Assembly: GCA_913056355.1 (NCBI GenBank)
Contig: CAJXMX010000002.1
Location: 1 to 49,176 of the forward strand
Direction: 5' to 3'
Length of the DNA: 49,176 bases
DNA from: an uncultured Opitutales bacterium
GTDB taxonomy: Bacteria > Verrucomicrobiota > Verrucomicrobiia > Opitutales > Oceanipulchritudinaceae
Part shown: in pieces, positions 2,734-49,176 of the stretch
How positions within the stretch are numbered: position 1 is the first letter of the stretch
How the letters are laid out: every line of letters begins with the position of its first letter
The notes under the pieces: generated by a model
What the model was told of the DNA's origin: nothing
The model's input: only the letters and a program-made list of their open reading frames with translations
Database searches by the model: none
Position numbers and translations under genes: made by a program

Positions 2734-3750
2734 ATGTCATCATTACCCAGCTTTACCGCGGACAACGGAAAGACCGTCACCTACCCCCTGGCCTACGGCC
2801 TGAGGACCTCGCGCCTGGCCTTGGGCTGCATGCATTTCGGCGGTACCTGGGAGGCGGAGGGCAGCATTCCTTCCGAGGCCCGGCAGCGGGCCCGCCAAGC
2901 CATGGAAACGGTCCTCGAGCTGGGCTGGAACTTCTTCGACCATGCGGATATCTACTGCCGAGGCCGCAGCGAACAGCTGTTCGGGGAACTGATGCGGGAA
3001 ATGCAGGTGGACCGGGAGTCGGTCATCCTGCAGTCCAAGTGCGGGATCCGGTTTGCCGACGATCCGGAGCCGGGGCTGCCCCATCGGTTCGACTTTTCCC
3101 GGAAACACATCCTGGCCTCGGTTGAGGAGCGGCTGAGGCTGTTGCAGACCGACTATCTGGATATCCTGCTCCTGCACCGGCCGGATCTCCTGGCCGAGCC
3201 GGAAGAGATTGTGGGGGCCTTCACCGGGCTTCACGAAGCGGGCAAGGTGCGGCATTTCGGGGTCTCCAACTTCACTCCGCCATTGCTCGACCTTTACGAC
3301 CAGGCCGGATTTTCCCCGGTGGCGAACCAGGTCGAGATCAATCTCTTCAAGACCTCGCTCCTGGACTCGACCCAGGTTGCGGTGGGGCGGGATCCCGCTC
3401 CGGGCCATCCGGGCGACGGCACCCTGGAGTGGCACCGGCGGAAGGGTGTCGTGACCCAGGCCTGGGCCCCCATGGCCTACGGTTACGCCTGCGGCCGCAA
3501 GCCGGACCGGGATCCTGAAAGGGCCGGGAAGGTTTCCGACCTCGTGGCCGGACTGGCCGCGGCGCACGGGGTGGAGCCGGAAGCGGTGGTCATCGGCTGG
3601 CTTCTGCGTCACCCGGCCGGCATCCAGCCGGTCATCGGCAGCCGCGATCCGGGGCGGCTCAAGGCCTGCCACCAGGCCCTCGACTTGCAGCTCAGCCGGG
3701 AGGAATGGTACACCCTCTACGTCACCGCCCGGGGAAACGCCCTGCCCTGA
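2734..3750 (+). CDS. Aldo/keto reductase
   Basis: A 338-residue (alpha/beta)8-barrel NAD(P)H-dependent oxidoreductase. The catalytic tetrad is readable: D69 and Y74 in FFDHADIY, K102 in LQSKCG and H148 in LLLHRPD. The cofactor-binding stretch near the C-terminus (PVIGSRDPGRLKACHQAL) is also typical. It resembles the YdhF-like branch of the family. Substrate unknown. It begins 31 bp after the M29-like gene, so the two may be co-transcribed. No convincing Shine-Dalgarno sequence precedes the ATG. Confidence 0.87.
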   Translation: MSSLPSFTADNGKTVTYPLAYGLRTSRLALGCMHFGGTWEAEGSIPSEARQRARQAMETVLELGWNFFDHADIYCRGRSEQLFGELMREMQVDRESVILQSKCGIRFADDPEPGLPHRFDFSRKHILASVEERLRLLQTDYLDILLLHRPDLLAEPEEIVGAFTGLHEAGKVRHFGVSNFTPPLLDLYDQAGFSPVANQVEINLFKTSLLDSTQVAVGRDPAPGHPGDGTLEWHRRKGVVTQAWAPMAYGYACGRKPDRDPERAGKVSDLVAGLAAAHGVEPEAVVIGWLLRHPAGIQPVIGSRDPGRLKACHQALDLQLSREEWYTLYVTARGNALP

Positions 3751-3860
3751 TTCGGGGGGACAAAAGGGCCCTCCGGTGGGGTCTTCGGGAGGCAGATTCA
3801 GGGATATTTCCGAATTAATCCTTGCGGGCGGGAACGGATGGGGGCTTATTTCCTTTTTCA

Positions 3861-7100
<3,240 letters not shown>

Positions 7101-7121
7101 CGCGGTCGTAGCGACACGCTC

Positions 7122-7985
7122 ATGACAGTCGATACCCCAGCCCGGCCGACCCTCATCGCGCTCCTGCACGGTCCGGACCAGCCCGGCCTGGTGGCCCGCA
7201 CCGCCAACTGGATCTATGACCGGGGAGGCAACATCCTGCATGCCGACCAGCACCGGGACGACGAGGCGGGGATCTTCTTCCAGCGCATCGAGTGGGAACC
7301 GGCCGACGCCGCCCAGGCCGATGCGGACGGGTTTTCCGCCTTCGTCCGCGGCCTTGGCATGGAAGTCTCCGTGGCGCAGTCAGACCGCTTGCCCCGGGTG
7401 GTCCTCTTTGTCTCGAAGATCGAGCACTGCTTTGTCGACCTCCTGGCCCGCTGGAAAATGGGCGAGCTGCCCTGCGAACTGGCGGGTGTTGTCTCCAACC
7501 ATCCGGACCTGGCCTCGATAACGGAATTCTACGGGTTGCCCTTCCACCATGTGCCGGTTGGCAGGGAGGCCAAGGCCGAGGCCGAGCGGAAGCAGGTCGC
7601 GTTGCTCCGGAAGTACCAGGCCGACCTGGTGGTCATGGCCCGCTACATGCAGATCCTTTCGGAAAGTTTCCTTCTTGGCTGCGGCTGTCCGGTAATCAAC
7701 ATTCACCACAGCTTCCTGCCCGCCTTTGCCGGGGCCCGGCCCTACCACCAGGCCCATTCACGCGGGGTCAAGCTGATCGGGGCCACCGCCCACTACGCCA
7801 CCGCCATCCTCGACGACGGCCCGATCATCCAGCAGGACGTGTCCCCGGTCAACCACCGCCACTCGGTGCGCGATCTGGTCCGCAAGGGCCGCGACCTCGA
7901 GAAGAGCGTCCTGGCCCAGGCGGTCCGCTGGCACCTCGAGCACCGGGTCCTGGTCTACGGCAACAAGACGGTGGTGTTTGATTAG
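7122..7985 (+). CDS. purU: Formyltetrahydrofolate deformylase
   Basis: A 287-residue protein with an N-terminal ACT-like regulatory domain (about 8-90, beginning LIALLHGPDQPGLVART) and a C-terminal formyl-transferase fold. The catalytic Asn-x-His and Asp are visible: N193 and H195 in NIHHSFLPAF and D231 in ILDDGPI. PurU hydrolyses 10-formyl-THF to formate and THF, supplying formate for purine synthesis and balancing the one-carbon pool. It lies 21 bp after carB on the same strand and is probably co-transcribed with it, linking two nucleotide-synthesis steps. The short CCCC-TCA-GGGG stem just after the stop is too small to call a terminator. Confidence 0.95.
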   Translation: MTVDTPARPTLIALLHGPDQPGLVARTANWIYDRGGNILHADQHRDDEAGIFFQRIEWEPADAAQADADGFSAFVRGLGMEVSVAQSDRLPRVVLFVSKIEHCFVDLLARWKMGELPCELAGVVSNHPDLASITEFYGLPFHHVPVGREAKAEAERKQVALLRKYQADLVVMARYMQILSESFLLGCGCPVINIHHSFLPAFAGARPYHQAHSRGVKLIGATAHYATAILDDGPIIQQDVSPVNHRHSVRDLVRKGRDLEKSVLAQAVRWHLEHRVLVYGNKTVVFD

Positions 7986-31265: not shown

Positions 31266-32309
31266 ATGAGGATCCTGATCGAAGCCCACCATCCGGCGCA
31301 TATCCACTTCTGGAAATATCCCATCCGCGAGATGCAGCGACTGGGACACCGGGTTCGGTTGATAGGGCGCGATCGAGATGTCATGAAACGACTGCTAGAG
31401 GTGTATGACTGGATTGAGGCTGTTATTCCCCCGCGCCGGCAGACCCGCAACCGCTTTCCCTTTTTGGAAATGCTCCAACGTCAGTACCTCGTGGCCCGTG
31501 AAATCCAGCGCTTTCGCCCCGACGTGGTGGCCAGCCTGATGGGGAGCTACACGCAATCGGCCAAGCTGTTTGGCGTCCGCAACGTCATCTTTACGGACTC
31601 GGAATTCCAGCATTTCAACCACCGGATCGCCCATCCGTTTGCCGATGCGATCTACACGCCTGAATGCTTCTGTAAGGAACTTGGTCACAAGCAAATTCGA
31701 TATCAGGGGATTCATGAAATGATGTTCCTCAGGAAAGGCGTGTTCGACCCTGATCCCTCAGTCCTGAAGCGGTACGGCGATCTTGTGCCGGGAGAATTCA
31801 TCATCCTTCGTATCTCCGCGTGGAACACGCTGCATGACATTGGTGCACGGGGAATTGGTGACGAGCTAGAGCGGTTTATCGACTCCGTTCAAGGAAAGTA
31901 CCGGATTGTCGCCTCAGTCGAGGAAAGCGCGATCACTCGGGATCTGGGAATTGATCTCATTAATCCTCAACCGGAGGATTTTCACAGTCTTCTTTATTAT
32001 GCTCGCCTTGTCCTTACGGAAGGCGCCTCCACAGCCAGCGAGGCAGGTTGCCTTGCTGTTCCAACGGTCTATGTAAATTCTACGGGGGATCGGGGCTACC
32101 TCAGGATGCTGCAAGCAAAGCACGATATCGTGCACTGCTACTCCGCCAGTCGCGAAGGACTTGTGGGTGCGGTTGATTGGCTGAATAGTATTGAGGGCAT
32201 AAACTGGAATGCCAGGGAAACCTTCCAGTCGCAATTAAGCCGTGACTTGCCTGATGGATCTGGCTTTGTAGTGAATTCCTTGCTCGGAAATTCTCGAATT
32301 GGAATTTGA
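31266..32309 (+). CDS. DUF354-family protein (glycosyltransferase-like)
   Basis: A 347-residue protein starting MRILIEAHHPAHIHFWK, which fits the DUF354 family. This family is related in fold to GT-B glycosyltransferases such as lipid-A-disaccharide synthase. Other family-like stretches are GRDRDVMKRLLE, ASLMGSYTQSAKLFG, and VLTEGASTASEAGCLAVPTVYV near 260, which would be the nucleotide-sugar side of the fold. It begins 13 bp after the GT2 gene, within a rightward three-gene unit of the polysaccharide locus. The second half is more AT-rich than the housekeeping genes. The donor and acceptor are unknown. Confidence 0.75.
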   Translation: MRILIEAHHPAHIHFWKYPIREMQRLGHRVRLIGRDRDVMKRLLEVYDWIEAVIPPRRQTRNRFPFLEMLQRQYLVAREIQRFRPDVVASLMGSYTQSAKLFGVRNVIFTDSEFQHFNHRIAHPFADAIYTPECFCKELGHKQIRYQGIHEMMFLRKGVFDPDPSVLKRYGDLVPGEFIILRISAWNTLHDIGARGIGDELERFIDSVQGKYRIVASVEESAITRDLGIDLINPQPEDFHSLLYYARLVLTEGASTASEAGCLAVPTVYVNSTGDRGYLRMLQAKHDIVHCYSASREGLVGAVDWLNSIEGINWNARETFQSQLSRDLPDGSGFVVNSLLGNSRIGI

Positions 32310-32326
32310 ATGCGATATCCTCCAGT

Positions 32327-32947
32327 ATGTATAGAAACCTACAGCAAAAAATTCTCCGAAGGCTAACACACAGAATTCGCCTTGCACGCTCTCTGTACAT
32401 TGATGACTTCTACTTCATCCATATCAACAAAACCGGGGGGACGAGCATCGAGGAGGCTTTCAGGCTGCCAGCGGAGCATTTGACCGCAATGGAGAAGCGA
32501 AACCAAGTGGGGTTGGAGCGATGGAGAAATGCTTTCAAGTTTACTGTTGTAAGAAATCCGTGGGACAAGGTTGTATCGCATTACCACTACAGGGTTAAAA
32601 CCAATCAAGGCAATTTGGCTGACAGCGGTATGAAGTTTGAGGACTGGGTAAAATCAGCTTATCGCGATAACAATCCCTCGCTTTTTGACAATCCTAAGTA
32701 CTTTATGCCCTGCGTCGATTGGCTGACAGACTCTGATAATAAACTAATAGTGGATTATGTTGGAAGGTTCGAGCATCTGTCTCGTGACTTTGCCAATATT
32801 TGCGAAAAGATCGGACTTCAAGTCGAGCTCCCCCATCGGAAGGTGTCATCAAGAGATCACTACCGTGGATACTATAATTCAGAATGTAGGAACATAATTG
32901 GCGAGCACTTTATTCGGGACCTGGAACAATTTGAGTATACATTTTGA
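32327..32947 (+). CDS. PAPS-dependent sulfotransferase (Sulfotransfer_2-like)
   Basis: A 206-residue protein with the two PAPS-binding elements of carbohydrate sulfotransferases. The 5'-phosphosulfate loop is FIHINKTGGTSIEEAF near residue 30, and the 3'-phosphate site is FTVVRNPWDKVVSHYHYR near residue 75. The C-terminal part (EHLSRDFANICEKIGL) also matches the family. It would transfer sulfate from PAPS to a sugar hydroxyl or amine. The ATG at 32327 is used, but a TTG at 32306 that overlaps the DUF354 stop is possible. The gene is AT-rich and converges on a GT4 gene with 12 bp between stops. Confidence 0.82.
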   Translation: MYRNLQQKILRRLTHRIRLARSLYIDDFYFIHINKTGGTSIEEAFRLPAEHLTAMEKRNQVGLERWRNAFKFTVVRNPWDKVVSHYHYRVKTNQGNLADSGMKFEDWVKSAYRDNNPSLFDNPKYFMPCVDWLTDSDNKLIVDYVGRFEHLSRDFANICEKIGLQVELPHRKVSSRDHYRGYYNSECRNIIGEHFIRDLEQFEYTF

Positions 32948-34388: not shown

Positions 34389-35657
34389 TCATTCTCTGGA
34401 CAATAATAGGATGTACCTGAACCTAATAGCAAACTTAACGACCTGGGAGAATGAGGTTGCAGCTGCGGCTCCTGCGATCCCATAGGAGGGGATCAGGATC
34501 AGGTTCCCGACCAGGTTAATGAACAACGCCACCGCGGCCGACACACTGTTAAATCCGGGTCGTCCCATGGCAGCAATCGAATTTGCCAGAATCTTGCCGG
34601 CAGAGGTTGTGATAATTCCAGGGATAAGTATGACTAGAGCCGTGTAGGCGGGAGTGAATGCACTTCCGAAAACCAGTGAAATCAGAGGTTTACCGAAGAC
34701 GGCCAGAATACAGGAACCGACAATTGAGATTCCACAGGCTACTAAAGAGTAGCGGAGTATCAGGCTGCTTCCTTCCTGTGGAGAATTACTCAGTCGGACC
34801 AGGCGAGGGAATAGAACGTTGCTGATCGCCGCGGAAGGTATTCCCATTCTTTCGCTGATTTGGCTGGCAACGGCATAGACGCCTGTTGAGGACGTCCCGA
34901 TGAAAAAATTGATTAGGAAGATATCCGTCCGCCTGCTCAGGATTCCAATGATATTGGCGGCTTGGGCGCGGTAACCATATTCGGCCAGGTGGAAAAATAT
35001 CTCCCGGGTCCTCAAGAGATCCATGCCGGACTTTTTGCCCAGGCGGTAACGGATAAACACCATCAGCAGGATACTGAGTGCATAGTGGCTTGCGGTAAAG
35101 GCCACCGCGGAATTCAATATGTCCAGGCGATCGAACAACAGCAGGCAAAGCAGGTTCAGCAGCAGGACTATCGGCTGTATCAACTGCGTCAGGTTATAGG
35201 AATTGAAATCCTCCTCCGCGAGGAAGAGGGAGGAAAACTGATCATTTAACTGGACTGCTGGAAGAGCCGCTATACTCAGCACCAGGATTGGAAATTCTAT
35301 CGATGGAAGAAGAATGGAATGGGCCAGGTACAGAACCGGCAGGAGAACTAGCAGGCTACCAGCCAATGTAACACCGGCCATACGCAAGCCAACCTGGAAA
35401 ACCTCCCCTGAGCTATACACACCTTTGCCCACATAATATACAATGGCCGGACCGAATCCCATTCCGACAAGCAAGTTGAGCAGATTGGGCAGGATTATAA
35501 CGATGGCGAACTTGCCGTTGCCTTCCGGCCCAAGGCTTCTGGCAATGATGACAACCACCAGTAATTGAAGAACAGTCGCGACTACTCTCCTTGAGAGGGA
35601 TAAGCCGATATTTTTGTTAAGTGCCCCGTAATTTTGCTTCATCGACAATTCATCCAT
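34389..35657 (-). CDS. Wzx-like polysaccharide flippase (MOP superfamily)
   Basis: A 422-residue membrane protein with about 12 hydrophobic segments, starting MDELSMKQNYGALNKNIG. Typical features are VVIIARSLGPEGNGKFAI near the start, YGYRAQAANIIGILSRRTDIFLINFF in the middle and GVYAVASQISERM. This is the RfbX/Wzx type that flips lipid-linked oligosaccharides across the inner membrane. Its start overlaps the stop of the upstream GT4 gene in TAATG, so the two are probably translationally coupled. A Wzx/Wzy-type route for this glycan is suggested, although no Wzy polymerase is recognised in the window. Confidence 0.85.
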   Translation of the reverse strand: MDELSMKQNYGALNKNIGLSLSRRVVATVLQLLVVVIIARSLGPEGNGKFAIVIILPNLLNLLVGMGFGPAIVYYVGKGVYSSGEVFQVGLRMAGVTLAGSLLVLLPVLYLAHSILLPSIEFPILVLSIAALPAVQLNDQFSSLFLAEEDFNSYNLTQLIQPIVLLLNLLCLLLFDRLDILNSAVAFTASHYALSILLMVFIRYRLGKKSGMDLLRTREIFFHLAEYGYRAQAANIIGILSRRTDIFLINFFIGTSSTGVYAVASQISERMGIPSAAISNVLFPRLVRLSNSPQEGSSLILRYSLVACGISIVGSCILAVFGKPLISLVFGSAFTPAYTALVILIPGIITTSAGKILANSIAAMGRPGFNSVSAAVALFINLVGNLILIPSYGIAGAAAATSFSQVVKFAIRFRYILLLSRE

Positions 35658-36863: not shown

Positions 36864-37850
36864 TCATACAGTTTGGTACCCGAGCTCCCGCAGGGCTGGG
36901 TTGACAAGCTTCCTGACTGAATTGAGGACTTCCATGGGGACCTGCTTTCTTCCCTTACCCACTGAGGTTGGGGATACGCGACCCACCACATTTGCATGAT
37001 GGGCCAGGTTCCCGACATCGCCCATTATGTCGATCACTTCCGCCTTTTGATCGCGAAATGGTATTCCAAACTTTTTCGCTATTTTTGCGATGCAGGAATC
37101 CGAATCCTTTACCAGGTCTTCATAGCGAATCTCGAGGTATCGGTTTTCTGGAAGTTTACCCTTGAAATGCTTCCAATGGACATGGCTGAGTTTCCACCGC
37201 TTTGCGGCCTGCATCGGATCATCATACAGGCCGGAATTAAGATAGGAGGCAATAACGTCCAGCCCGTCCCGGACAAGATATATAAATGTTGCTCCCGGCA
37301 TCATCGAATCCAGGTCGGACAGGTAGAAAGTATTGCCCGGGGTTTTGTCTCCGGCCCAACTGGAAGGAAGACCGACCTCCCTCCCGATCCATCCATAGAA
37401 CCGCTGGACCAGAATCCCTATGTCTCTTTCCTCGGCGGGCCAGCTACCGGCCTCGCGGCAGAAGGAATGGGGATCGCCTAAACCCGGGATCTTGAATCCC
37501 GGACGATCAATCAGGGTGTGGACAACGCGGTTGACAAGGTCCGGCCACTCCTGGGATCTGGCGGTGATCCGGTAGGATGCGATGGTTGGCAGGACGTAGG
37601 ACTCCGGTGGAATAAAGATGTCCAGGTCTTCCATCATGAGTCGGCGCAGGAGGGTATTGCCGGACCGACCGCAGCCGACGATAAAAAGGAAGGACACGTA
37701 GGGAGGTTTCGGTTTATTCCGGGGCGGAAAACCTGAGAAGAGCGACCGCGACCAGTGGGCAGCTTTACGGACGCCGTGATGAAGGGCCGGATAGGCAAGG
37801 AGAAGTGCCAGATCCCTGTTTCTAGTCACACCCACCCCGTCTTCCCTCAT
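36864..37850 (-). CDS. PAPS-dependent sulfotransferase in the wbp-type operon
   Basis: A 328-residue protein. The phosphosulfate-binding loop is [20 protein letters not shown] (about residue 50), and the 3'-phosphate site is [19 protein letters not shown] (about 190). WAGDKTPGN and [12 protein letters not shown] are also typical of the Sulfotransfer_1/3 group. The start ATG overlaps the stop of the upstream acetyltransferase in ATGA, which means translational coupling to sugar-nucleotide genes. It therefore probably sulfates the glycan made by this locus. A longer open frame back to 38222 is rejected because that part reads the acetyltransferase out of frame. Confidence 0.88.
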
Positions 37851-38359
37851 TGAATATTCCCCTCGGCGTCCACAGTGCCCGCCTGCATGGCCGGCACCCC
37901 CTTCATGAGTGCAAACGCTGGCACGTCCTTCGTCACCACCGCCCCCGCCGCGATAAAGGCGTACTCGCCGATAGTGACGCCACAGATGATGGTGGCGTTG
38001 GCCCCGATGGTGGCACCCTTTTTGATGACGGTCTGCTTGTATTCGTGCTTTCGTGATACAGCCGACCGTGGATTGATGACGTTGGTCAGGACGCAGGAGG
38101 GACCCAGGAAAACGTCGTCCTCGACGATGACCCCGGTGTAGAGGGAGACGTTGTTCTGCACCTTGACGCCGTTGCCAACCACCACTCCCGGTGCTACATA
38201 ACAGTTTTGGCCGAAGCTGCATCCATTGCCAATACGAGTCTCCTTGCTGATGTGGCAGAAGTGCCAGACTTTCGTGCCCGCGCCTATCTCGGACCCGTCA
38301 TCGACAATTGAACTGGGATGGATGTAGGGAGGATCTTCCATGGGTTCTTCCTTGCTCAT
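37847..38359 (-). CDS. WbpD/WlbB-like sugar-nucleotide N-acetyltransferase
   Basis: A 170-residue left-handed beta-helix (hexapeptide repeat) protein. The repeats begin [25 protein letters not shown] and continue through [22 protein letters not shown]. The motif [24 protein letters not shown] is characteristic of WbpD/WlbB, which acetylates the 3-amino group of UDP-2-acetamido-3-amino-2,3-dideoxy-glucuronate. It lies directly after WbpB- and WbpE-like genes, as in Pseudomonas and Bordetella clusters. Its start overlaps the upstream oxidoreductase stop (ATGA), and its own stop overlaps the sulfotransferase start (ATGA). Confidence 0.88.
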
Positions 38360-39339: not shown

Positions 39340-40426
39340 GCTTGCTCTCCCTGACCGCCTTGCAGATGCGGTCCTGTTGCTCATGGCTCATGTAGGGATG
39401 GAAGGGCAGGCTGAGGACCTCCCGGGCCGCCGCCTCCGAATGAGGGAAGCTGCCTTCTCTATAGCCCAACGGCTGGAATACCTTCTGCTGGTGCAGGCAG
39501 TTGCGGTAGTAAACCGCCGTGGGGATGCCCTGGTCGCGGAGATCCTTGGCCAGTTGACCCCGGTCATTTGGGCGTATCGTGTACTGGGCATAGATGTGGG
39601 TGTTACCGGCGGCAATGGCGGGGGTCCGGCAACAGTCCCCCAGTAGCTCGGAATAGCGTCGACCAAGTTCCTGCCGCAGCCCGATCTCCTCCTTGTAGGC
39701 CGGGAGCTTGGCCAGTAAAATGGCTGCCTGCAGGGTGTCGCAGCGCCCGTTGGTTCCCAAATGGTCATGGTCGCCCCGGACCAGTCCGCCGTGGTTGACG
39801 ATGGCCCGCAAGCGGTCCGCCAGCCCCTTGTCCCGGGTAAAAATGGCGCCTCCATCGCCGTAGCAGCCCAAGGGCTTGGCCGGAAAGAAGCTGGTGCAGG
39901 AAACGGTGCCGGTGGTTCCGCTTTTGTGTCCCTTTCGTTCGGCTCCGAAACTTTGCGCGGCATCCTCGACTATGTGTATCGGCTTATTGGCGACAATTTC
40001 CTCTATTGCCTCATAATCCGCCATCTGGCCGAACAGGTTTACCGGTATGACGGCTTTGGTCTTGGGTGTAATGGCCGCCCGCACCGCCTCCGGATCGATG
40101 TTGTAGGTTTCCGCGTCGATATCCGCGAAAACAGGTGTGGCCCCGACCAGCCCGATTACTTCGGCTGTGCTGATCCAGGTGAAGGGGGTGGTGATGACCT
40201 CGTCGCCGGGCCCGATGCCGAGTGCCCTGAGCGCGATCTCCAGGGCCATGGTCCCGCTGGAGGTCAGGATGGAATGGGTCCCGCCGAGGAATTCGCCCAG
40301 CGCGGTTTCCAGCTCATGGACTTCCGGTCCGTTGATGAAGCGTCCATGTTCGAGGACGCCCGCCATAGCGGCTTCAATGGCCTCCTCGCTCCGCCTGTGA
40401 ATGGCCTTAAGATCGATGAATTCCAT
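39332..40426 (-). CDS. WbpE/WlbC-like DegT/DnrJ/EryC1 aminotransferase
   Basis: A 364-residue PLP-dependent sugar aminotransferase. Features in order: MEFIDLKAIHRRSEEAIEA, the LTSSGTMALEIALRALGIGPGDEVITT segment, VEDAAQSFGAE and the Schiff-base lysine K184 in SFFPAKPLGCYGDGG. It should add an amino group from glutamate to C3 of the 3-keto-UDP-sugar in the diacetamido-uronate pathway. Its start shares TAATG with the stop of the upstream dehydrogenase, and its stop overlaps the next oxidoreductase by 8 bp, so the four genes form a tight unit. Confidence 0.92.
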   Translation of the reverse strand: MEFIDLKAIHRRSEEAIEAAMAGVLEHGRFINGPEVHELETALGEFLGGTHSILTSSGTMALEIALRALGIGPGDEVITTPFTWISTAEVIGLVGATPVFADIDAETYNIDPEAVRAAITPKTKAVIPVNLFGQMADYEAIEEIVANKPIHIVEDAAQSFGAERKGHKSGTTGTVSCTSFFPAKPLGCYGDGGAIFTRDKGLADRLRAIVNHGGLVRGDHDHLGTNGRCDTLQAAILLAKLPAYKEEIGLRQELGRRYSELLGDCCRTPAIAAGNTHIYAQYTIRPNDRGQLAKDLRDQGIPTAVYYRNCLHQQKVFQPLGYREGSFPHSEAAAREVLSLPFHPYMSHEQQDRICKAVRESKHA

Positions 40427-41715
40427 TATGCTTTTATGATCCTGGCCTTGCCGGGTGTCACATCGACAAGGGCGTTGCGGGTGTCAATAATCAGGGGTAC
40501 CGAGTCGACCAGCTTCTGGTAGGGCATCCCTTCATGGGCCGTGACGATGACCGCCGCGTCAAACTGCCCCAGGCTGACCGAGTCCCATGAAATGGATTTC
40601 ATTCCCCGCCATTGCATGTGCGCCCGGGTCTTTGGCAGCACCGGAATGAAGGGATCGTAATAATAGGGATGGCCGCCGCGTTCATGGATCAGTTCCAGGA
40701 TTCTTAGGGCCGGGGACTCCCGCATGTCGTCGACATTCTTCTTGTACGCCATGCCCATAATGAGAATCCGGCTCTCCTTGATGGGCTTGCCAAAATCGTT
40801 CAGGCCATCAGCCAGTTTGGCGACCACGTAGTCCGGCATGACCTGGTTAATTTCCCCGGCCAGCTCGATGAACCGGGTCGTCAGTCCTTCCTCCTTGGCC
40901 CGCCAGCTGAGGTAAAAAGGATCGATGGGAATGCAGTGTCCACCAAGCCCGGGTCCCGGGTAAAAGGGCATGTAGCCGAAGGGCTTGGTCTTGGCCGCTT
41001 CAATTACCTCCCAGATATCGATCCCCATTCGAGAGAAGATCACCTTCAACTCGTTGACCAGGGCAATATTCACACTGCGGAAGATGTTCTCCGTCAGCTT
41101 GGCTGCTTCCGCCACCTTGCAGGAAGAGACCGGGACCACCTGCTGGACCACCTGCCCGTACAACGCCACCGCCTTTTCCAGGCAGGCTTCCGTCAGCCCG
41201 CCAACCAGCTTGGGGATCCGGCCAATCTCGCTCAGGGGATTTCCCGGGTCTTCCCGCTCGGGGGAAAAAGCCAGGTGAAAGTCCGTTCCCGCCTGCATCC
41301 CGGAGGTGCTTTCCAGGATCGGCAGCAGGCACTCCTCGGTCGCCCCGGGGTAGGCCGTGGACTCCAGAACCACCAGGCAGCCAGCGGAAATGTGCGGCCC
41401 GATGGAGCGGGCCGTATTCTCGACATAGGACATGTCCGGCTGGCGGTGCTTGTCCAGCGGGGTGGGGACACAGATCACGACCGCCGAGACGTGGGAAACA
41501 GTGGTGAAGTCCGTTCCCGGCCGCAGGTTTCCGGACTCGACTGCCCTGCGAATGCGGTCAGCAGGAATATGCCGTATGTAGCTTTGCCCCGATTGAAGGG
41601 CATCCACCTTGGCCTCGTCCACATCCAAGGCCAGAACGGTGGCCCCCGCCTCCGCGAAGATCAGGGAAAGGGGGAGCCCTACGTATCCTTGTCCAATAAC
41701 GGCAATGCTGCTCAT
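40426..41715 (-). CDS. UDP-N-acetylglucosamine 6-dehydrogenase (WbpA-like)
   Basis: A 429-residue nucleotide-sugar dehydrogenase. The NAD motif IAVIGQGYVGLPLSL is at the N-terminus, VVICVPTPLDKHRQPD and LESTAYPGATEE follow, and the catalytic cysteine is C261 in GLGGHCIPIDPFYLSW. The C-terminal UDP-binding domain is complete. WbpA oxidises UDP-GlcNAc to UDP-GlcNAc-uronate, the first step of the pathway that the next three genes continue. It may also be WbpO/TviB-like (GalNAc), which the neighbours make less likely. A 125-bp AT-rich gap separates it from the upstream GT-C gene and could hold a promoter. Confidence 0.92.
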   Translation of the reverse strand: MSSIAVIGQGYVGLPLSLIFAEAGATVLALDVDEAKVDALQSGQSYIRHIPADRIRRAVESGNLRPGTDFTTVSHVSAVVICVPTPLDKHRQPDMSYVENTARSIGPHISAGCLVVLESTAYPGATEECLLPILESTSGMQAGTDFHLAFSPEREDPGNPLSEIGRIPKLVGGLTEACLEKAVALYGQVVQQVVPVSSCKVAEAAKLTENIFRSVNIALVNELKVIFSRMGIDIWEVIEAAKTKPFGYMPFYPGPGLGGHCIPIDPFYLSWRAKEEGLTTRFIELAGEINQVMPDYVVAKLADGLNDFGKPIKESRILIMGMAYKKNVDDMRESPALRILELIHERGGHPYYYDPFIPVLPKTRAHMQWRGMKSISWDSVSLGQFDAAVIVTAHEGMPYQKLVDSVPLIIDTRNALVDVTPGKARIIKA

Positions 41716-41840
41716 CAATTTTCCAGTACGGTGATTCTGAATAATTTCGGTTTCCTAAAAATGTGTCAGTGCAAAAATCAGTCAGCCCCGGATATGGGCA
41801 ATTTTTAGCAGTTCCACAACAATTGTGATCAAGGAAAGCC

Positions 41841-45270: not shown

Positions 45271-45504
45271 ATTATGCCTCAAAGCGGTTTTTTGAATCCA
45301 GCATCAGTATGTGCAGGAAAAGCTGTTGTGAAAGGTGGTTGGACAGGTCATGGGGACTAGGCGGAATTCGGAAAGATTGGAAATGTGCACCTGACATAGC
45401 AAGAAATTGCTAAACAGCACCGCCCCATTACGTCCTTTCTTGCCAAGGTTTACAGGTTCCTTACTTCAGAGATCCAGTTATTGACCCAAGGAGACATCTC
45501 TCTA

Positions 45505-46836
45505 ATGCCTGAACCGAAATCCACTAATAAGCCCCCGCTGCTCGCTCGCCTGGCCTTTTACTACCTGGTTATCTTCGGCTGTCTGGTAATTGGGTTCGGC
45601 ATCTCCTATCTGCAACTGCCACCGTATGGGGCGATTGACAAGGGATTCAAGGAATTGGCCACCTTTTTCAAGGGTACCCCCGAGGAAGGTAAATCTGCTA
45701 GTGACCGCTTGCTACTGCATCGCCAGGAGCGTCGACAAAACCTTTTCGATCCCGGCTTCAATCTCCGCGACCCAAATTTTGTCGATCCAGGTTATTTGCT
45801 CATTTCGGAGTTTAACAAGGAGGTAGGACAGGTTATTGTACGCTTGGTCGCGGTTGATGGATTCGAGGAAATCTACCGGTGGTTGCCCCCCATTGAGGAA
45901 ATTCTGAACCGAACATCGCGGGACACGAAAAACAATAACCTCGCCGGATACACCGCCCAAAATCCCGTCCTGCACAGCGATGGTAGCCTGGTATTCACCA
46001 GCGGTAACGGTCCATTGGTGAAGATATCCAAGGACAACGAAATTTTCTGGATTGTAGACGGTCATTTCCACCACTCCATTGAAGTCGATCATAACAGAAA
46101 TTACGTCGTCCCCGTGGTGAATAAGCCTGCTTTCATGCAGTTCGATAAACCGTATCGTGACGACGCCTACAGTGTCATTTCAGCGGAGGGGAAGGTCCTG
46201 GATAACCGCTCGGTGGGGAAAATCATGCTGCAGGATGATCGGTTTTTCGGTTTATTTTTAGGCGCGGGGTTTTTCACGGAGGACAGACTTCACTTGAATG
46301 ACGCCCAGCCCATTCTTGAGGACAATGGGATTGCCAAAAAAGGGGACATCGCCTTCAGCATGCGGCACCTGTCACTGGTCATGCTATACCGTCCTTCCAC
46401 AAATAAAATTATCTGGGGGCGGATCGGGCCTTGGACCTACCAGCACGACATTAACATCCTGCCTGATGGGCGATATTCCATCTTCAGCAACAACGTCCTA
46501 TGTGTGGAGACGATCGACAACGTCATTTCCCACAAATCCCACAGTGAGGTCTATATCTACGATGCCACCACGGATTCCGTCGTTTCCCCTTATGGTGATC
46601 AGATGGAGAAATCCCAGTGCATCTCCTCTACAGGGGGGCGTTCCCGTATCCTCCCTAACGGGGATGTCTTTCTGGAACAGTACGATTATTGCCGCATTCT
46701 TCGTCTGTCCGGTGACACCCTGCGCTGGGAATACACCAACAAGGTGACGGATGACACGGAAGGCATGGTCAACTGGTGCCGCTACCTCCTCCCTGACGAA
46801 GTCGATCTAGACTGGCTGGAAACAACAAAAAACTGA
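45505..46836 (+). CDS. Membrane-anchored arylsulfotransferase-like protein, copy 1
   Basis: A 443-residue protein with one N-terminal membrane segment (about 12-34) and a large beta-propeller-like domain outside. The pattern fits the ASST/Arylsulfotran families. The residues known for E. coli AssT (two His plus Asn-x, Arg and the catalytic His) can be matched: H187-H190 in GHFHHSIE, H263 and N265 in RLHLNDAQ, R287 in SMRHLSL and H314 in TYQHDINILP. AssT moves sulfate between phenolic esters without PAPS; the substrate here is unknown. Start ATG 45505 has AAGGAG at 45488-45493. Copy 2 follows after 9 bp. Confidence 0.72.
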   Translation: MPEPKSTNKPPLLARLAFYYLVIFGCLVIGFGISYLQLPPYGAIDKGFKELATFFKGTPEEGKSASDRLLLHRQERRQNLFDPGFNLRDPNFVDPGYLLISEFNKEVGQVIVRLVAVDGFEEIYRWLPPIEEILNRTSRDTKNNNLAGYTAQNPVLHSDGSLVFTSGNGPLVKISKDNEIFWIVDGHFHHSIEVDHNRNYVVPVVNKPAFMQFDKPYRDDAYSVISAEGKVLDNRSVGKIMLQDDRFFGLFLGAGFFTEDRLHLNDAQPILEDNGIAKKGDIAFSMRHLSLVMLYRPSTNKIIWGRIGPWTYQHDINILPDGRYSIFSNNVLCVETIDNVISHKSHSEVYIYDATTDSVVSPYGDQMEKSQCISSTGGRSRILPNGDVFLEQYDYCRILRLSGDTLRWEYTNKVTDDTEGMVNWCRYLLPDEVDLDWLETTKN

Positions 46837-46845
46837 ACCCTGCCA

Positions 46846-48186
46846 ATGCCTGACCCGGATTTAAACCAGAAACAACCTTTGATCGCCCGCTTGGCATTTT
46901 ATTATTTGGTCATCTTCAGCTGCTTGGTGATTGGCTTTGGCGTTTCCTACCTCCAATTGCCTCCTTATCATCAAATAGACAATGGCCTGAAGGAATTAGG
47001 GGCGTTTCTGAAAGGGAAGGCCGGTGAGAATAAATCCACCATGGAGCGCCTGACCCTGCACCGCCAGGAGCGTCGTGAAAAACTTTTTGAACCGGGATTT
47101 CATCTACGGGATCCAAATTTCGTTGATCCTGGCTATCTGCTCATCTCTGAGTTCAACAAGGGTGAAGACCAGGTAGTGGTGCGACTTGTTAGCGTTGATG
47201 GCTTTAAGGAGGTCTACAGGTGGGTCCCTCCAGTTGAAGAAATAATTGAGCGGACCTTTCAGGACGTAGGATGCAACAACAAAGCCGGGTATGAAGCCCA
47301 GCATCCTCTGTTGCACGATGATGGAAGTCTGGTTTTCACCAGTGGAGAAGGTCCCCTGGTCAAAATCGACCGCAACAACAACATTGTCTGGACTGTAACC
47401 GGCTACTTCCATCACTCCATCGAGCGGGATAGCAAGGGCAACTACGTGGTTCCAACCGTTAACAACCCTCCTTTCATGAGCTTTAATATTGATGGAACCC
47501 ACTATCGTGATGATGCATATGCTGTTGTTTCACCTGATGGTGAATTACTGGAGATTCAATCAATCGGGAAACTTTTGGTCCAGGATGACCGGTTTGTTGG
47601 AGCGTTTCTGGGGGTTGGGAATTTTAACATGGACCGAATCCATTTGAATGATGCCCAGCCAATACTCGAGGATAATGGAACCGCACTCAAGGGGGATATT
47701 GTTTTCAGCATCCGACATCTCTCGCTTGTGATGCTTTATCGTCCTTCCATCGGGAAGATCATCTGGGGGCGGATTGGTCCATGGACCTACCAGCACGATG
47801 TCAATATTCTCCCGGACGGCCGATTTTCTATATTCAGCAACAATGTAATGACCCTTAGGGACGATAACGATGCCGTACCACACAAGCCATACAGTGAAGT
47901 CTACATCTATGATCCCACCACCGATTTGGTCGAATCCCCGTATCGCGAGGAGATGGAGAAGATCGGCTGTCTCACGGTCACTGCGGGTCGCTCTCGGATA
48001 TTGCCCAACGGCGATGTATACCTTGAACAGTCGGATTTTTGCCATCTGGTCCGCATTTCCCGCGACTCGATTCGCTGGGAATATACGAACCAGTTGACTG
48101 CGGATACCCAGGGTTTGGTTAACTGGTGTCGCTACCTCCTTCCGGAAGAGGTTAATTTGGACTGGCTTAACGAATCCCAAAATTGA
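46846..48186 (+). CDS. Membrane-anchored arylsulfotransferase-like protein, copy 2
   Basis: A 446-residue paralogue of the preceding gene, closely similar along its whole length, with the same N-terminal anchor (RLAFYYLVIFSCLVIGFGVSY split at the end) and propeller. The same key residues are kept: YFHHSIE, RIHLNDAQ, SIRHLSLVMLY and TYQHDVNILPDG. It lies 9 bp after copy 1, so the two are one operon. The arrangement points to a recent tandem duplication. Differences cluster in the loops (NPPFMSFNIDGTHY, NNVMTLRDDND), which could mean different acceptors. Confidence 0.72.
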   Translation: MPDPDLNQKQPLIARLAFYYLVIFSCLVIGFGVSYLQLPPYHQIDNGLKELGAFLKGKAGENKSTMERLTLHRQERREKLFEPGFHLRDPNFVDPGYLLISEFNKGEDQVVVRLVSVDGFKEVYRWVPPVEEIIERTFQDVGCNNKAGYEAQHPLLHDDGSLVFTSGEGPLVKIDRNNNIVWTVTGYFHHSIERDSKGNYVVPTVNNPPFMSFNIDGTHYRDDAYAVVSPDGELLEIQSIGKLLVQDDRFVGAFLGVGNFNMDRIHLNDAQPILEDNGTALKGDIVFSIRHLSLVMLYRPSIGKIIWGRIGPWTYQHDVNILPDGRFSIFSNNVMTLRDDNDAVPHKPYSEVYIYDPTTDLVESPYREEMEKIGCLTVTAGRSRILPNGDVYLEQSDFCHLVRISRDSIRWEYTNQLTADTQGLVNWCRYLLPEEVNLDWLNESQN

Positions 48187-48223
48187 AGTTCTTATCCATT
48201 ATTTCCTGCTCCCGGTAAAACAA

Positions 48224-48252
48224 TTGGAAATGTCACAGGTTAAAAGTGCTAT
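48224..48252 (+). promoter_or_regulatory. Candidate promoter before the third paralogue
   Basis: TTGGAA (48224-48229), a 17-bp spacer and TGCTAT (48247-48252) precede copy 3. The 11-mer ATTGGAAATGT that covers the -35 box (48223-48233) also occurs upstream of copy 1 (45376-45386), so it may be a shared control site. The -10 box is weak. Confidence 0.3.
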
Positions 48253-48294
48253 GCCCTAGACAAGCCAAGAATGACGCTTAGAAGTGGTTGCTTC

Positions 48295-49176
48295 ATGGCG
48301 GATCAGGACCCAGCTAAAAAGTCTCCTTTGTTGGCCCGTTTGGCATTCTATTACCTGGTTATTTTTGGTTGCCTTGTAATAGGCTTTGGGATCGCTTACC
48401 TGAAACTTCCTCCCTTTCAAGCCATTGACAATGGATTCAACCAATTGACAACCTTTTTCAAAGGTACTCCAGAAGAGGAAAAGACTACGCTGGAGCGGCT
48501 GACTCTTCATCGTCAAGAATTCCGCCAGAACAAGTATGATCCGGGGTTCAATCTGCGGGATTCTGATTTTGTAGATCCAGGTTTCTTGCTTATATCTGAA
48601 TTCAGCAAGGAGCACAACCAGACCATCATCAGGTTGGTCAAAGTGGACGGATTTGAAGAGCTATATTCTTGGATTCCGCCAGTTGAGGAAATTCTCGATC
48701 AGACCAGGAGGGATACCCTTTTCAATAATATGGCAGGTTTTTGTGCTCAGCACCCTCTTCTTCTCACCGATGGGAGCGTCGTCTTCACCAGTGGCCAGGG
48801 ACCCTTGGTTAAGATTGACCGAGATAGTGAAGTGGTCTGGACTATCAACAGGCATTTTCATCACTCCATCGAAGTGGATCAGAGTGGTAACTTTGTCGTG
48901 CCGATTGTAAATGAGCCATCGTTTTCCGAAGAGTTGTCCCTCTTTCGCGATGATGCCATAGCCATTGTTTCTCCTGAGGGTGAAATTTTGGAAATTCGGT
49001 CCATTGGAGAGTTGCTTGTTAAGGATGACCGATTTGTCGGGGCCTTTTATGGGGTTGGTTATTTTTTTGCGGACAGGGTCCACTTGAACGATATTCAGCC
49101 CATCCTGGAGGATATCGGGACTGCGAAGAAAGGAGATCTTGCCCTGAGCTTGCGCAATCTGTCCCTGATTATGCTG
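48295..49176 (+). CDS. Membrane-anchored arylsulfotransferase-like protein, copy 3 (3' end outside window)
   Basis: The frame is open to the last base, giving the first 294 residues of a third paralogue: MADQDPAKKSPLLARLAFYY, membrane segment, then the propeller with RHFHHSIE, RVHLNDIQ and LSLRNLSLIML. The window ends before the expected catalytic His of the TYQHD motif. It lies 108 bp after copy 2 with its own candidate promoter, so it may be expressed separately. An in-frame ATG at 48271 is an alternative start. More copies may follow to the right. Confidence 0.72.
   Translation, partial: MADQDPAKKSPLLARLAFYYLVIFGCLVIGFGIAYLKLPPFQAIDNGFNQLTTFFKGTPEEEKTTLERLTLHRQEFRQNKYDPGFNLRDSDFVDPGFLLISEFSKEHNQTIIRLVKVDGFEELYSWIPPVEEILDQTRRDTLFNNMAGFCAQHPLLLTDGSVVFTSGQGPLVKIDRDSEVVWTINRHFHHSIEVDQSGNFVVPIVNEPSFSEELSLFRDDAIAIVSPEGEILEIRSIGELLVKDDRFVGAFYGVGYFFADRVHLNDIQPILEDIGTAKKGDLALSLRNLSLIML

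Follow-up and report, generated by a model that had tools for sequence, protein, structure and literature searches.

The window analyzed here, a 49,176-nucleotide stretch from an uncultured Opitutales bacterium, ends in three consecutive in-frame genes on the forward strand. A preliminary description had read these as a tandem triplet of anchored aryl sulfotransferase (ASST)-like paralogues. Copy 1 (45505..46836; 443 amino acids, with a TTG at 45481 as an alternative start) encodes an N-terminal anchor and a beta-propeller domain. Copy 2 (46846..48186; 446 amino acids) follows after 9 nt and is 68% identical to copy 1. Copy 3 (48295..49176, starting at 48295 or 48271) is open at the contig end, with 294 N-terminal amino acids in the window. 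Because a single matching fragment – the C-terminal 147 amino acids of an ASST, 61% identical to copies 1 and 2 – lies at the start of another contig of this genome, C31 (L005:2-445), we infer that copy 3 continues there across a gap of ~8 nt.

Pairwise amino acid identity among the three copies is 61–68%. Synonymous sites between them are saturated, which indicates that the copies are old (dN/dS is therefore not quoted), and pN is ~0.2.

A polysaccharide locus lies beside the triplet, marked by glycosyltransferase genes, a gene for a flippase-like protein (PF01943 profile match; 34389..35657, reverse strand) and a UDP-sugar dehydrogenase gene (40426-41718). A Sulfotransfer_2 protein (PF03567, E = 2e-10; 32306..32947, forward strand) is encoded among the glycosyltransferase genes, and a further PAPS-type sulfotransferase (PF13469, E = 3.5e-28) is encoded at 36864..38222 on the reverse strand.

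Family, fold and active site of the triplet

Profile searches placed the copies in PF14269 (Arylsulfotran_2), consistent with the proposed ASST family membership. Copies 1, 2 and the truncated copy 3 score 81.6, 81.1 and 33.9 bits against a curated cut-off of 27, and the E-values of the two full copies (8.9e-23 and 1.2e-22) exclude chance. Scores for the classical AssT family, PF05935 (Arylsulfotrans), are 17.4, 22.4 and 11.8 bits, all under the cut-off of 24.2. A phmmer search with copy 1 alone returned only a chance PDB match, and profiles were required to reach homologues. A search of 88 relatives (same order, family or genus) returned no match, and a pattern search among named genomes found no close relatives with the pattern set used.

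Fold comparison used an AlphaFold model of copy 2 of moderate confidence (pLDDT 78.6), in which the protein is a six-bladed propeller. Its top PDB matches, above all other propellers, are Cpz4 of caprazamycin biosynthesis (Z 26.9, rmsd 3.7 over 316 residues) and Escherichia coli AssT (Z 25.4). Cpz4 (PDB 9kf4, 9kf6) resembles the copies in having a PF14269-like propeller whose His (139), His-x-Asn, Arg and QHD align with theirs. AssT of E. coli CFT073 (PDB 3elq, 3ets) shares the six-bladed propeller, with H436 corresponding to the QHD histidine and H252 (THESIE) to HHSIE, but differs in belonging to PF05935 and in having a signal peptide, an N-terminal beta-sandwich and Thr501.

The AssT active-site pattern described earlier is present in copy 1. 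With the ATG at 45505 taken as the start codon, it comprises H189/H190 (HHSIE), H263/N265 (HLND), R287 (SMR) and H314 (QHD). In alignments H314 corresponds to AssT H436, while H190, H263, N265 and R287 correspond to His252, His356, Asn358 and Arg374. Copy 3 carries HHSIE, HLND and the Arg within the window and QHD on C31. The active-site His, His-x-Asn, Arg and His are conserved in 64–67 of 68 relatives. The emphasis on a His-His pair needs adjustment – HHSIE is present, but the near-invariant residue is the second His (67/68), with the first found in 60/68.

The reported spacings of 24 residues from HLND to Arg and 27 from Arg to the last His were also reproduced, but they do not mark a ‘compact variant’. 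PF14269 proteins are usually spaced this tightly, and in the Cpz4 alignment the Arg and the catalytic His lie 38 residues apart, likewise fewer than the 62 of AssT. AssT Thr501 has no counterpart, with Ala or Gly at the aligned position. Cpz4 also lacks it, so Thr501 does not define the wider group.

As the preliminary description had held, an N-terminal anchor stands in place of a cleaved signal peptide. Hydropathy analysis identified a hydrophobic segment at residues 16–34 in all three copies, encoded in copy 1 at 45550..45606 on the forward strand (KD(19) 2.18, next best segment 0.88). Basic residues precede the copy 1 anchor, and the propeller is thus predicted to face the periplasm.

A recurrent gene module beyond the contig end

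Although the triplet is real, viewing it alone gave an incomplete picture: its partner genes lie just past the contig end, outside the view of the preliminary description. On C31, the C-terminus of copy 3 is followed by a gene for a small membrane protein with a YIGPG motif (L005:454-699; hereafter the YxGPG protein) and then by one for a membrane-anchored PAPS-type sulfotransferase (ST; L005:759-2150; PF13469, 39.4 bits against a cut-off of 27). The ST gene is followed by genes for a methyltransferase/GT2 fusion and a methyltransferase (L005:2166-4396).

The module ST has the PAPS-loop motif GLARAGTT. The closest folds to its model are mycobacterial STF9 and STF1 and PAPS-bound tyrosylprotein sulfotransferases, with Z from 17.9 (STF9) to 16.3. 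It thus shares fold and PAPS-loop motif with PF13469 (Sulfotransfer_3) enzymes such as STF1 and STF9 and with tyrosylprotein sulfotransferases. Unlike these enzymes, module STs carry an N-terminal three-helix membrane domain, or have one encoded beside them, that falls outside the structural matches, and their genes sit with those for an ASST and a YxGPG protein. The PAPS-type sulfotransferase of the polysaccharide locus matches the profile of the module ST only remotely (E = 7e-4). Within the YxGPG family the Y-x-G-P-G motif is invariant, with the Tyr present in 64/64 sequences and downstream of a signal-peptidase-like site in 58/64. NCBIfam has no family for the ASST, the module ST, the YxGPG protein or the membrane domain, and the latter two are absent from Pfam as well.

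This genome (across two contigs) and genomes G245 and G132 share the order ASST(n)-YxGPG-ST. Named genomes from several phyla have it too, and the module is found again in Thermodesulfobacteriota, Pseudomonadota (including SAR11), Bacteroidota and Planctomycetota. Complete flanks are available for 56 ST loci. In 36 of these an ASST gene lies no more than 3 kb away (33 on the same strand); the remaining ST loci come from 20 genomes, every one of which encodes an ASST elsewhere.

Across 329 genomes of two families, an ASST is present in 22/22 ST-bearing genomes and in 4/307 others. In the Rhodobacter-type family, 11 of 149 genomes have an ST and 12 an ASST, with an overlap of 11 (Fisher 9e-16); the corresponding numbers for the Sphingomonad family are 11 and 14 of 180, again with an overlap of 11. 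The 22 ST-bearing genomes always encode one ST and between one and five ASSTs (26 ASSTs to 11 STs in the Rhodobacter-type family). Many ASST paralogues are unlinked to the ST and scattered across the genome. Tandem duplication of the ASST gene has arisen repeatedly.

Genes of PAPS synthesis occur beside the ST at several loci. An APS kinase gene adjoins it at four loci (L125, L137-L139) and lies 3' of an ST-ASST pair at another (L150), and CysNC, a PAPS reductase and a CysQ-like gene are present at L124. A cluster member at L142 that grouped with CysN is a LepA-like GTPase and was discarded. Clustering of the neighbours of module loci revealed no third enzyme common to most of them that would point to a carrier. 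A search of openly accessible papers found no account of an ASST-YxGPG-ST module.

A putative trans-membrane sulfuryl relay

In caprazamycin biosynthesis a two-step logic operates, in which PAPS-dependent Cpz6 provides the aryl sulfate donor for Cpz4. This pair is the precedent for the proposed ST-ASST relay, and both co-occurrence and gene order point to a dedicated PAPS-type partner for the ASSTs described here. To our knowledge, AssT has no such ST partner. Cpz4 and Cpz6 are confined to one antibiotic gene cluster, whereas the ST-ASST pairing here is widespread and includes a membrane-anchored ST, a YxGPG membrane protein and several ASSTs per ST. Cpz4 represents an ASST that acts in a real biosynthetic pathway (PMC13426309).

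We favor a relay, with a probability of roughly 0.6, in which the ST charges one shared carrier in the cytosol and several periplasmic ASSTs spend the sulfate. This reading draws on gene order in relatives, co-occurrence, the one-ST-to-many-ASST ratio, active-site residues, folds and the PAPS-synthesis genes beside the ST. We infer the chemistry, the carrier, its crossing and the acceptors as follows. The membrane-anchored ST would use PAPS at the cytosolic face to sulfate the carrier, which is probably an activated ester (phenolic or of another kind) and may be borne on a lipid. The YxGPG protein and the helical membrane domain of the ST might keep the partners together or move the carrier across the membrane. 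In the second stage, the three copies would act as membrane-anchored, periplasm-facing, PAPS-independent sulfotransferases like Cpz4 and AssT, each taking the sulfuryl group on its counterpart of AssT H436 and passing it to an acceptor of its own.

In this genome the acceptors are probably envelope glycans, as the ASST genes abut a polysaccharide locus. Support for glycan acceptors is weak, since the neighborhoods of ASSTs unlinked to the ST are only mildly enriched in sugar-nucleotide enzymes relative to control regions (Epimerase 6 versus 2, C-methyltransferase 4 versus 0).

That several ASST paralogues accompany a single ST suggests that one source of donor serves enzymes with several different acceptor specificities. 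Interchangeable copies that merely raise dosage would fit the identical active-site residues and nearly equal lengths, but seem improbable: 61–68% identity with saturated dS places the copies far earlier than a recent amplification, and paralogues in other bacteria are scattered through the genome. Acceptor specialization is more plausible, because the copies are old and the ASST gene alone was multiplied, never the ST gene. We give the least credence to the triplicated propellers being mainly binding or scaffold proteins. Six-bladed propellers often serve as scaffolds, and in G132 one of the tandem copies (L029:10469-11776) retains none of the active-site residues, but H, H, N, R and H are kept in all three copies here and in nearly all relatives, and the low pN beside saturated synonymous sites indicates strong constraint.

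The strict co-occurrence is equally compatible with two enzymes of the same pathway working independently, without a relay, on one polymer, the ST sulfating a cytosolic glycan precursor and the ASSTs later shifting or adding sulfate on the exported product. The adjoining polysaccharide locus does encode other PAPS sulfotransferases, and Cpz4 itself sulfates a sugar hydroxyl (PMC13426309). A sugar sulfate would, however, be a poor donor, since known ASSTs require an aryl sulfate and refuse alkyl sulfates and PAPS (PMC13426309); together with up to five ASSTs per ST, many of them unlinked, this makes such an arrangement unlikely.

Scavenging of environmental aryl sulfates, as proposed for E. coli AssT, would agree with a periplasm-facing propeller and with the use of exogenous phenyl sulfates by AssT (PMC13426309). 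It would leave the adjoining ST unrelated, and appears very improbable given that ASSTs are found in all ST-bearing genomes of the two families but in few others, and that gene order is kept across phyla.

Extending the relay beyond this genome, we tentatively suggest that many bacteria could possess a periplasmic ‘sulfuryl currency’ – a carrier charged by the ST, helped across the membrane by the YxGPG protein and the ST membrane domain, and spent by anchored ASSTs on different acceptors in the envelope – in a role like that of undecaprenyl-phosphate sugars for periplasmic glycosyltransferases. In a bolder version, the carrier would be the invariant Tyr of the YxGPG protein itself, an idea that rests on the conservation of this Tyr, its position relative to the signal-peptidase-like site and the resemblance of the ST fold to tyrosylprotein sulfotransferases.

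Significance for bacterial sulfation

These results suggest that the triplet forms the outer half of a module widespread in bacteria, with a PAPS-type ST as the inner half. They also define two membrane protein families that currently lack a name, the YxGPG protein and the ST membrane domain. According to a 2026 review, more than 40 years of work on PAPS-independent aryl sulfotransferases of bacteria have not revealed any natural substrate (PMC13426309). That the ASSTs pair so strictly with a single ST of the PAPS type suggests that the donor is made by the cell, and makes the ST gene a handle for finding it. The module likewise provides a genetic handle on how bacteria might sulfate the polymers of their envelope beyond the cytosol, in a space that lacks PAPS.

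Family and active site of the ASST triplet

The end of the window encodes, as the preliminary description had proposed, a tandem triplet of paralogous arylsulfotransferase-like (ASST) reading frames: copy 1 (45505-46836), copy 2 (46846-48186, 9 nt after copy 1) and copy 3 (48295-49176), arranged head to tail, with the last incomplete at the contig end. Each copy has a single N-terminal hydrophobic segment (residues 16-34), as do 64 of 68 family members, which bears out the suggested N-terminal anchor. A Pfam search assigned the copies to PF14269 (E about 1e-22), with PF05935, the classical AssT family, under its cut-off. Searching the PDB with a profile of relatives retrieved the caprazamycin-pathway enzyme Cpz4 at 2.7e-12 and Escherichia coli AssT at 8e-7, and an AlphaFold model of copy 2 (pLDDT 78.6) matched Cpz4 (Z 26.9) and AssT (Z 25) ahead of the next propellers (Z ≤21). 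The assignment to the ASST family, whose fold is already known, was thus upheld.

The proposed active-site pattern could also be aligned: a His, His-x-Asn, an Arg and QHD occur in the same order as in AssT and Cpz4 (H139, H-I-N, an Arg and QHD in the latter). The QHD histidine aligns with AssT H436 and HHSIE with AssT THESIE (H252), with a one-residue ambiguity. Conservation across 68 relatives is near complete (H190, H263, N265 and H314 of copy 1 in 67 each, R287 in 64). AssT Thr501 is without a counterpart in the copies, as it is in Cpz4. The tight motif spacing, earlier read as a compact variant, is instead a property of the PF14269 layout.

A conserved ASST–YxGPG–sulfotransferase gene set

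We found one further match in the same genome, right at the beginning of contig C31; it spans exactly the C-terminus absent from copy 3. About 8 nt are unread at the break, as expected of an assembler halting within a repeat, and we infer that C31 continues copy 3. There, an 81-aa membrane protein (L005:454-699, 8 nt after copy 3) is followed by a PAPS-type sulfotransferase (ST; L005:759-2150; PF13469, GLARAGTT loop), directly 3' of which lie a methyltransferase–family 2 glycosyltransferase fusion (L005:2166-3623) and then a methyltransferase gene.

The small protein carries Y-x-G-P-G (Tyr in 64/64 clear cases), directly preceded in 58 by a signal-peptidase-like site; beyond the motif it spans the membrane once and has a basic WYPxKR tail. 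The ST membrane domain varies between genomes, being either fused to the ST or encoded by its own gene (122-132 aa); neither it nor the YxGPG protein matched Pfam or NCBIfam. The ST model (pLDDT 90) is nearest in fold to mycobacterial STF9, STF1 and tyrosylprotein sulfotransferases.

The order ASST, small protein, ST recurs in same-order genome G245 (ST ~44% identical), and G132 has two ASSTs, small protein, membrane protein and ST. The second of these ASSTs (L029:10469-11776) lacks every active-site residue beside an intact neighbour and may be a pseudoenzyme partner inside a module. In G409, an ASST and a sulfotransferase adjoin a type I phosphodiesterase (L031:6385-8595) with the same YIGPG membrane segment near its N-terminus, suggesting that another enzyme family also employs this segment.

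When 84,980 named genomes were scanned for matches to the ST alignment, 80 loci emerged; their sources include Thermodesulfobacteriota, Alpha- and Gammaproteobacteria, SAR11, Bacteroidota and Planctomycetota. An ASST lies ≤3 kb from the ST in 36 of the 56 loci with full flanks (same strand in 33), and all 20 source genomes of the other loci have ASST genes elsewhere. Among 149 genomes of a Rhodobacter-type family, 11 have the ST, 12 an ASST and 11 both (Fisher 9e-16); the corresponding counts for the family to which a Sphingobium belongs (180 genomes) are 11, 14 and 11. Since both centre genomes had been selected by their ST, the unbiased co-occurrence count is 20/20. In a sample of the window's own phylum, PF14269 occurs in 4/4 strong-ST genomes, three of which had served to build the ST profile, versus 27-30/388 overall. 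ST-bearing genomes always have one ST and 1-5 ASSTs.

APS kinase, which makes PAPS, directly adjoins the ST in three loci (L125, L137, L139) and stands behind an ST–ASST pair in L150; at an assumed density of 1.5 genes per 4 Mb, the expected number of such genes in the sequence read is ~0.4 (P about 7e-5). In L137 (9093-9959) and L139 (9093-9968), directly behind the module ST, the kinase is fused to a DUF2061 membrane domain, apparently placing a membrane-bound PAPS maker next to a membrane-bound PAPS user. CysNC, PAPS reductase and a CysQ-like gene adjoin the ST in L124, a module-containing record titled Bordetella parapertussis that is a metagenome bin, probably misnamed.

History of the triplet

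The copies form one clade (support 100/100). Their 61-68% identity and saturated synonymous sites mark them as old duplicates under maintained constraint. This clade nests with Planctomycetota, Desulfobacteraceae and Porticoccaceae sequences, apart from G245; G+C is 49% across the triplet (45505-49176) versus 61% for the window, and none of 88 same-order relatives has a close match. On these grounds, horizontal acquisition is likely. The tree also shows separate tandem ASST duplications in L157, L096, L089, L144 and Mucilaginibacter. The L157 triplet (2986-7344), beside one ST in Bacteroidetes MAG QH_7_62_13, is independent of, and convergent with, that in the window.

A putative two-stage sulfation relay

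PAPS is confined to the cytosol; ASSTs, which face the periplasm, draw on aryl sulfates. Given these constraints, and the joint inheritance of a single ST with often multiple ASSTs, the simplest account of the pairing is a two-stage relay: the ST would charge one common sulfated carrier, whose sulfate the ASSTs would spend on acceptors. Cpz4 is known to operate in such a way, and Cpz6–Cpz4 provides a precedent within one antibiotic pathway; in the literature searched, we found no account of a membrane module that is widespread, includes two unnamed families and pairs one ST with many ASSTs.

As a clue to acceptors, enrichment near stray ASSTs was weak. The upstream polysaccharide locus contains two more sulfotransferase genes, of different families (window 36864-38222 and 32306-32947), so cytosolic sulfation of its polymer is probable as well. 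Because this locus, with its sulfotransferases, adjoins the triplet, envelope glycans are a reasonable guess for the ASST acceptors.
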